The notes beneath the pieces are model-generated. The model did not search any database. It had not been told where the DNA came from and was given only the letters and a program-made list of their open reading frames with translations. This document shows positions 46,710 to 51,589 of a DNA stretch of 64,000 bases, in pieces; positions within the stretch are counted from its first letter, which is position 1; every line of letters begins with the position of its first letter. The translations under genes and the position numbers were made by a program. Origin of the DNA: Arcobacteraceae bacterium (GTDB taxonomy: Bacteria > Campylobacterota > Campylobacteria > Campylobacterales > Arcobacteraceae); assembly GCA_021107755.1 (NCBI GenBank), contig JAIOSF010000021.1, positions 1 through 64,000 of the forward strand. Reading direction: 5' to 3'.

Positions 46710-47453
46710 TTAAAAAGGTGATATAGTTTCTACGATTTGAGTACCCCATGGTTTCTCCATAGCGTCTTGTTCATCACCATTTTTATAATACACCACTTTT
46801 AGATTTGCTAATTTATTAGAGCTAACAGTATTGTTAGCCTCAAGATCATAAGGACTCAGAACACCACTTAGTTTTAGTGTCTGTTTTTGTCCGTTTACAA
46901 TAACTTCTTTGGTACCTTGAATGAGAAAGTTTCCATTTTGGAATAGTTGTGTAACTATAGCTGATATATTATAACTAAACTCATCATTTACCTCACTTGA
47001 TGCTTCTGCTTTGAAAGTACCTGAACGGCTTGGTAGGGTGTACCCCATTCCTAAAACTTTATTAAGTACATTAGCTGAATTTTTAATTAAACTACCAACT
47101 ATAGGCATACTTGTTCCAGGTACATTATTTAAAGAACCACCTTCTTGTGTTGTTCCATCATCATTTAATTTTGTCTCTTTAATACTTTCAGTTTTAGCTG
47201 AAGTTGGACCTTCATTAATGGTAATATAAACTATATCACCAATTTGTAGGTTTTTTCTATCTGAAAAAAGTGAAGCACCTTGATTAGAAAAAAGTGAACC
47301 CTTGGCTTGAGGCCTTGGAGGGTCTATCTTTTTTGGAACCTGATATTTTGGTTTTTCATCAATTTTTACACTATTATTAATTGATTGTGTACTATTACTA
47401 CAACCTGTAAGAAGAATAGTTATTAATAGTATTGACAATAATTTAAGATTCAT
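46710..47453 (-). CDS. flgH: Flagellar L-ring lipoprotein FlgH
   Basis: It forms the outer-membrane ring around the rod. It has 247 residues with a lipoprotein signal peptide whose lipobox LLTGC places the acylated Cys at 18. Conserved FlgH stretches follow: GSLFSNQGASLFSDRKNLQIGDIVYITI, NGNFLIQGTKEVIVNGQKQTLKLSGVLSPYDL and a C-terminal GTQIVETISPF. The start overlaps the end of the upstream gene by 11 bases. Confidence 0.95.
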   Translation of the reverse strand: MNLKLLSILLITILLTGCSNSTQSINNSVKIDEKPKYQVPKKIDPPRPQAKGSLFSNQGASLFSDRKNLQIGDIVYITINEGPTSAKTESIKETKLNDDGTTQEGGSLNNVPGTSMPIVGSLIKNSANVLNKVLGMGYTLPSRSGTFKAEASSEVNDEFSYNISAIVTQLFQNGNFLIQGTKEVIVNGQKQTLKLSGVLSPYDLEANNTVSSNKLANLKVVYYKNGDEQDAMEKPWGTQIVETISPF

Positions 47454-47871
47454 ACTTATTCTCCACTATAGTTCTAATATCAAGAGCTATTTTTATATCT
47501 GTATCAGTACTTTTTAACATTGCATTTACCCCATATCGTATCATTACAGGCTCCATATTAGTTCCAAAATCACAAACGATAAGGAGTTTATCTTTTACTA
47601 TTTGTATCGATTGAATATTTTTTTGATTAATAAGTTTTGTTATTAAAACAGCTTCTTTATAGAGAAGGTTTTCTAGTTTTACAGTTTTAGAATTAAGCTT
47701 TTTTTCAATCTCTTTTTTAGTTGTTAGTTCAGTAGTGAGTTTCATATTTTCCTCTTGAAACTTACTACTCATATGTTGATAATAGAGCCAAAACATAGTG
47801 AATAAAGATAGTACAGCTATAGTTTTAACTAGAACTCTTTTATTGTTTTGATTTTGAACTATTATTAACAT
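47443..47871 (-). CDS. Hypothetical membrane-anchored protein in flagellar cluster, 142 aa
   Basis: I do not recognise this protein. One N-terminal membrane helix (about 14-31, VKTIAVLSLFTMFWLYYQ) is followed by a coiled-coil stretch (about 35-75) and a small alpha/beta domain (LLYKEAVLITKLINQKNIQSIQIVKDKLLIVCDFG...). The layout resembles assembly-platform proteins of the PilN/GspL kind, a resemblance of shape only. It lies between fliL and flgH and overlaps flgH, so co-expression and a flagellar or envelope role are likely by context. Confidence 0.72.
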   Translation of the reverse strand: MLIIVQNQNNKRVLVKTIAVLSLFTMFWLYYQHMSSKFQEENMKLTTELTTKKEIEKKLNSKTVKLENLLYKEAVLITKLINQKNIQSIQIVKDKLLIVCDFGTNMEPVMIRYGVNAMLKSTDTDIKIALDIRTIVENKYES

Positions 47872-48426: not shown

Positions 48427-48924
48427 TTAATTCTCCTCTTTATTTGTTTGTTCTTTTATTATTCTCATTTTTTTCATTATTAGAGTTGAAGTTTGAGTAT
48501 CTAGTTTTTTAAGTATCTTCATAACTCTTTTATCACTCATCCGTATCATTATATCAAATACTTCATCAATTTTACCGTTATTTATCATCTCATTAAAAAT
48601 ATTTATAACAACACCTAGTTTCATTTTATCATACATAGACATTGCTTTTGATGTTATTACTCTATTTATCTCATCTAATATTTTTTGGTTTTCACTTTTG
48701 AGTTTTTGAATATTTGCTTCAGATGCTTTAATACTCTTTTGTATATTTTCTAACTCTACTTTATTCTTTTGATACTCTAATTCTTTTTTCTCATAAAACT
48801 CATTAAGTTCATCTTTGATTGCAATGAGTTCTTGTTTCTCTTTATAAAGATCCCCTTGTTGTACATTGATTGCATAAAGTTGATTTATAAGAAGAAGTAA
48901 AAAAAGTATTTTTTTATGAAGCAT
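48427..48924 (-). CDS. MotE-like periplasmic flagellar protein (MgtE-N type domain)
   Basis: It has a signal peptide (about 1-18, LFLLLLINQLYA), a long coiled coil (about 28-95), and a C-terminal helical domain (about 100-160: YDKMKLGVVINIFNEMINNGKIDEVFDIMIRMSDKRVMKILKKLD) of the MgtE N-terminal type, as in MotE-like proteins. In Campylobacterota a homologue (Cj1496c by my recollection) is needed for motility, probably chaperoning the motor proteins in the periplasm. It overlaps fliJ upstream by 11 bases. Confidence 0.83.
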   Translation of the reverse strand: MLHKKILFLLLLINQLYAINVQQGDLYKEKQELIAIKDELNEFYEKKELEYQKNKVELENIQKSIKASEANIQKLKSENQKILDEINRVITSKAMSMYDKMKLGVVINIFNEMINNGKIDEVFDIMIRMSDKRVMKILKKLDTQTSTLIMKKMRIIKEQTNKEEN

Positions 48925-49339
48925 TTGTACCCTTTTTCTTTTGTATATGTTTTACTTGCATATATTCTGCTGAAGTTAACTCTTCTTGCTTTATAATTTG
49001 TTTTAATTTTTCTTTTTTCTGTTCTTGCAATATATAATTAAATTGTTCACTCTCTTTATTTAAATCAATTATTATATTGTTGTAGTGTTCAACTTGTTGT
49101 AAATAATGAAGTTTTTTTCTACCTAATTGAATCATATGTTCTTTCATTGTGTCTTTATGGATTTGCAAAACTCGAAAATCTGAGATAGCACCCATAACAT
49201 TAACACTTGCAGAGTTTAAATCATGATTTGTTTGAGACAACTCTTTATTAATATAATCTATTTTTGAAACAAGTTGCTGTTTTAATAATACTTGTTGATT
49301 TATCTGTTGTTGTTTTAACTTATAAATTTTTTCTATCAT
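48914..49339 (-). CDS. fliJ: FliJ-like flagellar export coiled-coil protein
   Basis: In flagellar export FliJ links the ATPase FliI to the gate FlhA. This 141-residue protein is almost entirely coiled coil (MIEKIYKLKQQQINQQVLLKQQLV...), with the heptad pattern and size of FliJ, and it is encoded between fliQ and a motE-like gene. Family sequence conservation is low, so the call rests on shape and context. ATG 49339 overlaps the fliQ stop (ATGA) and is preferred over the upstream ATG 49372 inside fliQ. Confidence 0.75.
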   Translation of the reverse strand: MIEKIYKLKQQQINQQVLLKQQLVSKIDYINKELSQTNHDLNSASVNVMGAISDFRVLQIHKDTMKEHMIQLGRKKLHYLQQVEHYNNIIIDLNKESEQFNYILQEQKKEKLKQIIKQEELTSAEYMQVKHIQKKKGTNAS

Positions 49340-49602
49340 TGTGTTTTTCCAAATGTGATTATAATATCCCAAAGCTCATAAGTATATTGTTCTATATGAT
49401 CCCCAACCCATGGAAGACTTACAACTATAAACACAGATACAATAATCATTTTAGGAACAAAAGCAAGTGAAGCATCACTAATTTGTGTAACGGCTTGAAA
49501 GATACTAATAATTAAACCAATAATCATACTAACAATTAGTGAAGGTAGTCCAAGAAGTAAAATGATTTTTACAGTGCTTTGAGATATTGCTATTAAATCC
49601 AT
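49336..49602 (-). CDS. fliQ: Flagellar type III export gate protein FliQ
   Basis: A two-helix membrane component of the export gate. It has 88 residues: MDLIAISQSTVKIILLLGLPSLIVSMIIGLIISIFQAVTQISDASLAFVPKMIIV includes the family core GLIISIFQAVTQI-x-D-x-x-L-x-F-x-P-K. It is intact, starts one base after the end of the acidic protein's gene, and overlaps fliJ. Confidence 0.95.
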   Translation of the reverse strand: MDLIAISQSTVKIILLLGLPSLIVSMIIGLIISIFQAVTQISDASLAFVPKMIIVSVFIVVSLPWVGDHIEQYTYELWDIIITFGKTQ

Positions 49603-49603
49603 A

Positions 49604-49969
49604 CTACTCTTTTATTTTAATTGTAATCTCAATAGTTTTGTTGTTTAACAATTCACTTAAAAGCTTAGATAAACTTGCACTACTCATATCTTGTTCTATA
49701 GATACTGAACTTTCCAAAGGTTCACTTGGAATTGGTTCATTTTCAATAGAATCTTCTTCCTCTAAGCTATTTACTTCTGATATGTTTTCTGTCTCTTGAT
49801 TATTATCTTCTTCCGAAGACTCATCATTAATCGTATCCTCAAAATGATCTTCAATAGTAATTCCATCTAGGTCAAAATCTTCACTTAAAGTATCATTAGG
49901 TTCTTTCCCTAAAGCATCTAGTACATCAGATTCAATGAGTGCATCTAATTGTGATAGTTCATTATCCAT
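49604..49969 (-). CDS. Highly acidic hypothetical protein in flagellar cluster, 121 aa
   Basis: I do not recognise this protein. Residues about 10-95 are extremely rich in Glu, Asp, Ser and Asn with hardly any basic residues, probably disordered. The last about 25 residues (SASLSKLLSELLNNKTIEITIKIKE) form a helix plus a basic strand, which could be a binding element. No cysteines, no signal peptide. The start has AAGGAATTATAAA upstream and the stop is one base before fliQ, so it is in the flagellar transcript; an adaptor or chaperone role is conjecture. Confidence 0.7.
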   Translation of the reverse strand: MDNELSQLDALIESDVLDALGKEPNDTLSEDFDLDGITIEDHFEDTINDESSEEDNNQETENISEVNSLEEEDSIENEPIPSEPLESSVSIEQDMSSASLSKLLSELLNNKTIEITIKIKE

Positions 49970-49987
49970 TTTATAATTCCTTATTCT

Positions 49988-50416
49988 CTAGTTAAGAGAT
50001 TTACTAATAGCCTCTAGAGTATCATCCTCTAACATATCCTCTATAGAAGTGATTTCATGTGCTTTAGGTTTTGAATTTTCTATAAATTCTAACCTTTTTT
50101 CTATATGAATCATAAGGTCTTTATAGGTTCTAATGCTAACATCCCCCATACCATAATGGTCTAAATATTTTTGTGTTATCCCATCTTTTGGTATTAAGAA
50201 TTTAAAGAGTTTAGTCGTTACACTGTCTTCTATAATTTTATTTTGATCGATTATAAATATTTGAGTAGGATCTTCTTCAATAAGCTCTTCAAGATCATAA
50301 AGGTACTCAACATCAATAACTTCACCATCTCCAATTTTAAACCGTATATTCCCATGGTCTAAAATTTTATGAATTTCCATTTTAAAAGATAGTTCACCGT
50401 AAATATATATATTCAA
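49988..50416 (-). CDS. Hypothetical protein at the head of the flagellar cluster, 142 aa
   Basis: I do not recognise this protein. It is soluble, mixed alpha/beta (MNIYIYGELSFKMEIHKIL, IFIIDQNKIIED, KLFKFLIPKDGITQKYLDHYGMGDVSIRTYKDLMIHIEKRLEFI), with an acidic C-terminal helix (SIEDMLEDDTLEAISKSL). That C-terminal segment resembles in character the N-terminal segment of the next gene product (LDALIESDVLDALG). First gene of the - strand flagellar operon, divergent from flgI across 99 bases. The function is inferred to be flagellar only by position. Confidence 0.7.
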   Translation of the reverse strand: MNIYIYGELSFKMEIHKILDHGNIRFKIGDGEVIDVEYLYDLEELIEEDPTQIFIIDQNKIIEDSVTTKLFKFLIPKDGITQKYLDHYGMGDVSIRTYKDLMIHIEKRLEFIENSKPKAHEITSIEDMLEDDTLEAISKSLN

Positions 50417-50515: not shown

Positions 50516-51589
50516 TTGAAAAATATTTTATTAGTTTTTTTTATATCGTTAACTATTTATGGTCAAACGATTAAAGATATATCAAACATTGTTGGGATAA
50601 GAGATAATCAGCTAGTTGGTTATGGTTTGGTAGTTGGGGCAAGAGCTGGTGGAGATGGTGATATCTCAAAACAAACATTACAAAATCTTTTGCGAAATGC
50701 CAATATAAAAATTGATGCTCCTGATGCTGGAGATACGGGTGCAGTTATTGTAACAGCTACTCTTCCCCCTTTTGCTAGACAAGGGGATAAGCTGAAAGTT
50801 GAAGTCTCTTCTTTAGATGGTGCAAATTTGGATGGTGCAAAACTTTTAGTAACTCAGCTTAAAGGAATCGACGGAAAAATCTATGCCTTAGCCCAAGGGA
50901 CAATTATTGGGGTTACTGATGAAAACACTAGGGGTAGAAGAGGTTCTGAGTCTAAAACTGGATATATCTATGATGGTGGTATTGTAGAAAATGAAGTTCT
51001 TTATAATTTAAGGGATGAAAAATCCATTACTCTTAGCTTGTTAGAACAAAATGCTAAAATAGCAGCACGAATTGAAGAAAAAATCAATGCTAAGTTTGGT
51101 AAAAATATCGCAATGGCTTACGATACAAGAACAATTGATGTTGTAAAACCAGAAGGTATTTCAATAGTTCGATTTATTGCTCAGATAGAGAGTATAGAAA
51201 TAGATAGTATGATGAAGAAAAAAGTGATTATTGATCCAGTAAAAGAGATAATAGTTGCTGGCTCTGATATAACTGTGAGTCCAGTTACTGTCTCCAGAGA
51301 AAATTTTACATTAAGAATTAAAAGATCGAATCTCAGTGATAAAGAGTGGGCAGATCCTGCTGTAAATATGGGAACTGATATAGGGGATGAAGCAAAGATT
51401 CAAAAAATTGATGGAGTACAAGAGGTTGACATAGACAATGCACTTATAAATTCAAAAAATCAACCTACTGTTTCAGATTTGATGAAAGCAATGAAAACTA
51501 TGAAATTAGACATAACTGAGATTATTGAAACTATTAAAATGATAGATGACCTTGGTGCAATTAATGCAGATGTAGAGATGGTGAAATGA
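50516..51589 (+). CDS. flgI: Flagellar P-ring protein FlgI
   Basis: It forms the ring in the peptidoglycan layer around the rod. It has 357 residues with a signal peptide (about 1-16, MKNILLVFFISLTIYG). Conserved stretches are NIVGIRDNQLVGYGLVVG, LPPFARQGDKLKVEVSSLDGANLDGAKLLVTQL, DAVNV-like IDVVKP, and a C-terminal NADVEMVK. The start is TTG at 50516 after ATAGGGTG. It is followed after one base by fliM, and flgJ, which I expect after flgI in Campylobacter, is absent here. Confidence 0.96.
   Translation: MKNILLVFFISLTIYGQTIKDISNIVGIRDNQLVGYGLVVGARAGGDGDISKQTLQNLLRNANIKIDAPDAGDTGAVIVTATLPPFARQGDKLKVEVSSLDGANLDGAKLLVTQLKGIDGKIYALAQGTIIGVTDENTRGRRGSESKTGYIYDGGIVENEVLYNLRDEKSITLSLLEQNAKIAARIEEKINAKFGKNIAMAYDTRTIDVVKPEGISIVRFIAQIESIEIDSMMKKKVIIDPVKEIIVAGSDITVSPVTVSRENFTLRIKRSNLSDKEWADPAVNMGTDIGDEAKIQKIDGVQEVDIDNALINSKNQPTVSDLMKAMKTMKLDITEIIETIKMIDDLGAINADVEMVK

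Follow-up and report, generated by a model that had tools for sequence, protein, structure and literature searches.

A two-part gene ahead of fliQ in Arcobacteraceae as a probable divergent ChePep

ChePep is described, in the accessible parts of PMC11237671 and PMC9665402, as specific to the Campylobacterota and as needed for the polar localisation and function of CheZ; its deletion leads to hyper-reversal, and the Campylobacter jejuni deletion mutant also hyper-reverses. In Helicobacter pylori the localisation of CheZ depends on ChePep and the reverse is also true (PMC5447363, in part), loss of ChePep makes reversals frequent, and the poly-E-rich protein HP0322 is ChePep (PMC3561388, in part).

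The Arcobacteraceae, according to the accessible part of PMC9321776, exchanged one chemosensory system for another and rearranged their flagellar genes; only cheY and cheZ were kept from the old system, and the two are inferred there to be remnants of a lost F3 system. ChePep is not among the chemosensory components in the methods of PMC9321776 as far as accessible, the accessible part of PMC5447363 has Arcobacter only in a reference, and no description of ChePep in Arcobacter was found in the literature searched, which was available in part and did not take in the original ChePep papers. Here two ORFs that precede fliQ in a member of this family were analysed. They are probably the halves of a divergent ChePep that was moved into the fliQ operon of the Arcobacteraceae and may hold CheZ at the pole.

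The gene pair ahead of fliQ and its fused relatives

The window, as the whole 64,000-nucleotide stretch of DNA analysed is called here, contains the following features at this locus.

50516..51589, plus strand: flgI, the divergent neighbour (PF02119, E = 8.2e-78)
49988..50416, minus strand: orf1, N-terminal half, 142 aa, TTG start, short acidic tail; residues 1-117 receiver-like in the model
49970..49987, minus strand: spacer of 18 nt between the TAG of orf1 and the ATG of orf2, which are in the same frame
49604..49969, minus strand: orf2, C-terminal half, 121 aa, very acidic, ATG start, ChePep-like by profile
49898..49963, minus strand: orf2 residues 3-24, acidic helix signature in common with ChePep, of LDxLxExDIxxALGE type (hhalign columns)
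49607..49687, minus strand: orf2 residues 95-121, conserved C-terminal helix and predicted strand (SKLLSELLNNKTIEITIKIKE; alignment)
49336..49602, minus strand: fliQ, directly downstream of orf2 (PF01313, E = 3.2e-23)

A sequence-only reading of this DNA had placed two ORFs of 142 and 121 residues ahead of fliQ and had called the second product extremely acidic. Both ORFs are present at the coordinates listed above, on the minus strand, and orf2 has 37 D+E against 5 K+R and a pI of 4.05 (orf1, pI 4.64). Within the spacer, AAGGAA at 49977-49982 is a ribosome-binding site with a duplex energy of -5.1 kcal/mol, and 1 nt separates the end of orf2 from fliQ. Such close packing would fit the single transcript proposed in the sequence-only reading. 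Pfam also named fliM and fliL among the neighbours, and fliD was named in a separate search. Neither orf1 nor orf2 had a Pfam match, even at E ≤ 10; in NCBIfam orf1 had no match and orf2 a chance-level one (E = 0.12, far below the family cut-off). Profiles built without the window's genus found orf1 at E = 2.4e-34 and orf2 at E = 5.3e-12, far above the other 776 of the 778 window ORFs of at least 30 codons, so orf1 and orf2 are genuine conserved genes and not chance ORFs. A promoter and terminator scan of the locus was uninformative, its 31 promoter sites being hardly above the 25.2 found in shuffles (sd 4.3).

Three more ORFs on the minus strand were also noted. Those at 48427-48924 and 48914-49372 had no Pfam match at cut-off and are, presumably, MotE- and FliJ-like, judged by position; the latter overlaps the end of fliQ. 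Between fliL and flgH lies an ORF of 142 aa (47443-47871) that matched no family; its N-terminal stretch is hydrophobic, and it looks like a protein with a single TM segment.

The acidic segments of the two proteins had also been described as similar. The likeness exists in the window and is modest: the best 14-mer pair scored 33 against a shuffle mean of 24.6, a score reached by 41 of 1000 shuffles. The test took in six of the seven split loci, L065 being left out, and in the five others the pair score was reached by 0, 3, 43, 363 and 701 of 1000 shuffles.

When relatives were searched (n = 41), orf1 was found in 22, all in the window's family. Most relatives have one frame of 231-488 aa before fliQ, made up of the orf1 part, a long acidic stretch of variable length and an orf2-like C-terminus. 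A scan of the genome collection gave 44 loci, nearly all labelled Arcobacter or relatives. The gene is fused in one frame in 36 of 43 Arcobacteraceae-type loci and split in the other seven, the window among them; this count leaves out, from 45 loci, L051 and L066, where the contig ends inside the gene. The N-terminal half was present in 94 family genomes, and 82 of these have an open frame of at least 230 codons there, the remaining 12 being split, on contig ends or, in genome G115, a short fused gene. The two parts of a split gene are in frame in the window (one TAG, 18 nt), L024 (15 nt) and L055 (0 nt) and out of frame in L023, L060 and L063. Read in this way, orf1 and orf2 represent one gene, orf1 its N-terminal and orf2 its C-terminal half. 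The place beside fliQ is conserved, contrary to the refuting outcome named in the sequence-only reading: fliQ lies 2-14 nt past the stop in 27 of the 36 fused loci, and the search pattern missed fliQ in the other nine.

The history of the two states was followed on a FlgI tree made quickly from 61 rows, with 20 outgroup rows to root it, from which the near copies L042, L046, L049, L078 and L079 and the short L043 were left out, and L023, which had no FlgI, was absent. The split loci fall near the base. A single clade (97, starred) unites 31 fused rows with one row of unknown state, and the fused L062 is sister to the split L055 (98, starred). The window's row is long and, as the program warned, its placement is unsure. 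As the split loci are basal and two changes suffice for the whole pattern, two genes are likely to be the older state, with at least two fusions, so far as one gene tree can indicate. A MAG contig labelled Helicobacter pylori PMSS1 (L066, CAMCYD010000086.1) groups with the Arcobacteraceae in this tree, as sister to L065, and is likely to be mislabelled or contaminated.

The N-terminal half occurs in 94 of 104 Arcobacteraceae genomes and FlgI in 93: 91 have both, eight neither, two FlgI only and three the N-terminal half only. One of the FlgI-only genomes, G084, has flgI at a contig end; in the other, G081, FliM was the sole member of the FliM/N family seen and FlhA was not found. Two of the genomes with the N-terminal half only are incomplete assemblies (84% and 54%); the third is G115 (88% complete, also L059), in which no FlgI, FliM/N or FlhA was found and yet the fused gene is kept. 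Of the eight genomes with neither, G003 (61% complete) does carry FliM/N and FlhA. There is one match per genome in 92 of 94, and two, which are contig-end pieces, in G006 and G023. In a draw of 298 Campylobacterota genomes, strong matches to the N-terminal half (E ≤ 2e-33) were confined to 20, all Arcobacteraceae and making up 20 of the 21 family members listed; 27 further genomes gave E values of 0.002-0.05 only. Across the searches, which covered Campylobacterota genomes, Pfam, NCBIfam and PDB, the counts support the view that the gene follows flagella and is restricted to this lineage, and to that extent the lineage-specific flagellar link proposed earlier holds. In G115 (L059/L075) the fused gene is directly followed by a likely relative, recognised by eye, of the window ORF 47443-47871, and both neighbours that separate the two in the window are gone.

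Comparison of the two halves with ChePep and with receivers

A profile of the C-terminal half gave 12 weak matches (E 0.001-0.05) in 277 genomes outside the family, and nine of these fell in one gene. In eight of the nine, a long acidic middle is followed by the signature helix seen here and by a C-terminal strand, and those visible over their full length have an N-domain whose receiver end reads Lys-Pro-Phe; the seven with flanks examined sit, by reading of the sequences, beside guanylate kinase, tatA and argS. The ninth, in G337, is the same gene by coordinates, with its frame broken by stops. We take this gene to be ChePep from its architecture and gene order, no tool having named it. The other three matches were rejected as not being that gene; two read as polynucleotide phosphorylase and an ABC ATPase.

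At E ≤ 0.01, a profile built from eight ChePep C-termini had hits in 200 of 298 Campylobacterota genomes. Comparison of the C-terminal half with ChePep C-terminal profiles by hhalign gave P = 1.3e-7 and 1.6e-7, and P = 1e-5 with 20 ChePep C-termini that the C-half profile had not found. As offered, hhalign reports only 21-22 columns; with gappy columns trimmed, 69 columns align with a 28-row ChePep profile, up to the C-terminal strand, and orf2 residues 95-121 fall within this match. Scored on the trimmed alignments, the match reached 37.1, whereas 150 column shuffles gave 16.1 at most and reversal 14.2. The Glu/Asp-rich middle is also present, as the acidic stretch of the fused relatives and in the 37 D+E among the 121 residues of orf2.

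In the reverse direction, the 28-row ChePep profile, which was built from sequences outside the family, found 72 of the 104 family genomes at E ≤ 1 and 59 at E ≤ 0.01, 57 of them in this frame. At E ≤ 1e-3, the match was in this gene in 46 of 47 genomes, and the remaining one was on the second contig of a broken assembly; in G083 the best match lies elsewhere. Within the window the ChePep C-terminal profile ranks orf2 first of 778 ORFs (E = 0.0028); a non-circular 20-row profile also puts it first, but at E = 0.084, and against the window's whole genome the ChePep C-terminal profile finds nothing at E ≤ 1. A PDB search with the N- and C-terminal profiles gave chance matches only (best E 1.3 and 0.48), and an AF2 model of the fused relative L062 (mean pLDDT 66) did not resolve the C-terminal half. 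Taken as a whole, a relationship between the C-terminal half and ChePep is well supported by profile comparison, the name ChePep being taken from architecture and gene order.

Two observations concern ChePep itself. Several matches contain in-frame stops (G337:C1:488025-488330 and others in G214, G231, G200, G324 and G358), which may be broken genes, phase variation or assembly errors, and the Campylobacter ChePep genes L155 and L156 have long, near-perfect IEEN repeats in the acidic middle.

The N-terminal helix of FliM and the C-terminal helix of CheZ are CheY-binding peptides. The signature helix could be read in another way, in which the gene encodes a lineage-specific adaptor of the C-ring or export apparatus. 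Its acidic helices, which resemble the EIDALL helix at the N-terminus of FliM, would then bind CheY-P or proteins of the switch or of export, and no more than a short common motif would link it to ChePep. The gene does sit with fliQ, the FliM of the same loci begins MAEFLSQDEIDALL (a start matching the pattern in 42 of 45 loci), and LDDLL-like motifs number 17 in the linkers and 5.8 in shuffles, a count that comes from related rows. The Arcobacteraceae are, moreover, without FliO according to the accessible part of PMC12403147, so a stand-in may exist. We consider this reading quite improbable: the ChePep match extends over the 69 trimmed columns to the C-terminal strand (21-22 as offered by hhalign), the weak matches outside the family concentrate in a single gene (9 of 12), and the genus-excluded C-half profile puts FliM only tenth in the window, at E = 4.4. 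The original proposal of two separate, undescribed flagellar adaptors or chaperones is not supported, the two being halves of one protein whose C-terminal half is related to a chemotaxis regulator. More specific candidates were also set aside: a FliO stand-in had neither transmembrane-type evidence nor a family match, an export chaperone found no support, and a CheY-binding peptide of the FliM/CheZ type does not tell the whole story, on the grounds just given against the adaptor.

The N-terminal half gave a different picture. The AF2 model of orf1 (pLDDT 83.0) is receiver-like. Its best Foldseek matches were receivers, with DivK first at E = 0.039 and none at ≤ 0.001, and VIA-align gave Z up to 8.5 over 94 residues, nearly all of the 50 rows shown being response regulators; by the tool's own scale, matches of this level possibly mean only a common arrangement. 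An invariant aspartate, D57, occupies the expected phospho-acceptor position. In the orf1-family alignment the acidic pair after strand 1 and the conserved Lys near strand 5 are absent, and Gly7 is invariant. Membership of the receiver family was rejected for orf1, which lacks the active-site pair and has no profile support. Comparison of the N-terminal half with the ChePep N-domain by hhalign gave a probability below 1% and a score of 14.96, within the range of column shuffles (maximum 20.2), and the ChePep N-profile does not single out orf1 (E = 1.9, tied seventh in the window). No sequence link to the 28 receivers of its own genome was found; ChePep's own N-domain does match receivers (95.7%). 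The N-terminal half thus models as a receiver-like fold, and its kinship to the ChePep receiver is not supported by sequence.

This last result could mean that only the C-terminal half comes from ChePep and that an unrelated receiver-shaped domain was recruited in the Arcobacteraceae ancestor, with the split state tracing the joining. Such a chimera would fit the missing sequence link to either the ChePep receiver or the 28 receivers of the genome and the place of the split loci near the base of the FlgI tree. It is nevertheless rather doubtful, as the parts follow one another as they do in ChePep (a receiver-like domain, then an acidic stretch, the signature helix and lastly the C-terminal strand), the model is nearest to receivers (Z 8.5 over 94 residues), and high divergence alone could mask kinship. 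Descent of both halves from ChePep is the reading followed below.

The internal start of the fused genes

In 35 of the 36 fused genes an in-frame ATG is present at the old start of the second half, 67-85 codons before the stop. This ATG was picked by protein motif and not by binding site. The duplex at its ribosome-binding site was ≤ -6 kcal/mol in 33 of 35 (mean -8.0), against a mean of -0.8 for the other in-frame ATGs of the fused ORFs, among which 1 of 98 reached -6. The two weak sites are those of L052 (-4.5) and L056 (-5.5). A sign at the nucleotide level is the glycine codon in the internal site, which ends in a purine (GGA or GGG) every time (33 of 33), compared with 177 of 354 across these ORFs. 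Synonymous resampling of the site gave -6.1 against the observed -8.0 (mean quantile 0.35), and the strength of the site is, for this reason, largely implied by the encoded residues. Nor is a strong binding site the rule for true starts here, since the fliQ starts have weak sites (mean -1.7, 0 of 37 at ≤ -6).

The fused genes are predicted from these features to give two products, full-length and C-terminal, from two starts, the shorter one beginning with a sequence of MSDEFSELD type, and we infer that both forms are translated. The ATG and its binding site might instead be an unused relic of recent fusion: the downstream gene once had its own start, two of the 35 sites are weak, and the encoded residues account for much of the site. 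We think this unlikely. The ATG has been retained in 35 of 36 fused genes, over the 31-row clade and in the second fused lineage (L062); in L056, where the glycine was lost, its replacement AGG keeps the purine run; and the only fused gene without the ATG (L059/G115) sits in a genome in which FlgI, FliM/N and FlhA were not detected.

A strong site before an in-frame ATG near the signature helix was also seen in canonical ChePep genes outside the family, in 3 of 28 loci (L198, L203 and L205) and 3 of 45 ATGs, so the internal start may not be confined to the Arcobacteraceae. The long frame itself starts with TTG in 44 of 45 loci and GTG in one, at weaker sites (mean -3.6); for a weak start codon, the TTG of the N-terminal half is unusually constant across the 45 loci.

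Proposed role and comparison with known systems

The pair is better explained as a variant of ChePep than as a new kind of adaptor, the C-terminal half being well supported and the function inferred. Kinship of the C-terminal half with ChePep makes CheZ and the reversal of the motor likelier targets than the C-ring or the gate for export. In the window's genome a CheZ is found beside CheY in the large flagellar locus (NCBIfam E = 1.2e-33, 116.6 bits, below the curated cut-off of 350; no Pfam match). Because the dependence between ChePep and CheZ is known and both CheY and CheZ are present, the pair may well hold CheZ at the pole; binding of CheZ, polar location and an effect on reversals are all proposed by analogy.

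By analogy with the ChePep of Helicobacter and Campylobacter, the protein would gather at the flagellar pole, hold the CheY phosphatase CheZ there and so lower the rate of motor reversal. The C-terminal half would be the conserved partner-binding part, and the receiver-like N-terminal half, which is without the usual acidic pair, would serve as a non-phosphorylated docking domain. Deep-branching members, the window's genus included, carry the halves as two adjacent genes, and in such species the halves would act as separate chains, which may bind each other, unless one end suffices for each task.

A fuller scenario is offered tentatively, as something short of probable. ChePep and the F3-remnant cheY-cheZ would together have entered the flagellar operon that the ancestor of the Arcobacteraceae had rebuilt, and ChePep would there have become a system of two parts, a phosphorylation-dead receiver and a separately translated CheZ-binding tail; the two would have been fused at least twice, with the second start always kept, and the ratio of full-length to short form would set how much CheZ is held at the pole. 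If a hidden ChePep is indeed present, it would be a third survivor of the old system and would explain how CheZ keeps its place at the pole. With the two ends of ChePep naturally parted into two proteins, the CheZ-binding end and the role of the receiver become directly testable.

Several known systems share something with this gene. Like the N-terminal helix of FliM and the C-terminal helix of CheZ, its signature is a short acidic amphipathic helix of xDIxxALxx type, but the conserved register is different and the helix lies within a ChePep-type C-terminal region. With receivers (REC domains), orf1 has in common the fold of its model and the invariant D57; it differs in the invariant G7 where the acidic pair is expected, in having no conserved Lys-Pro and in the lack of profile support.

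In outline, the fused gene is also like SctQ/SpaO of injectisomes, where one gene gives a full-length and a C-terminal product by way of an in-frame internal start; the accessible part of PMC13059759 describes an internal translation start that yields the short C-terminal form. There is no sequence relation here and no SpoA domain was found (no Pfam match to FliMN_C in orf1 or orf2 at E ≤ 10, PF01052 being present only in three other genes of the genome), and in the window and the other split lineages the long form is absent altogether. If a short C-terminal form has been kept across most of the family, it would amount to a new level of regulation in a chemotaxis protein, in form like the internal start of SctQ/SpaO.

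The closest system is ChePep itself (H. pylori HP0322; C. jejuni CJJ81176_1193). The Arcobacteraceae gene lies beside fliQ, whereas the ChePep genes read sit before gmk-tatA-argS; its N-domain is without the Lys-Pro pair that is invariant in the aligned ChePep N-domains and has no sequence link to them; and it is either split in two or provided with a conserved internal start. In common with ChePep it has, by profile comparison, the C-terminal signature helix and strand, and also an acidic middle, an N-domain that is receiver-shaped in the model, what is apparently a single copy per genome, occurrence in the Campylobacterota and a CheZ in the same genome.
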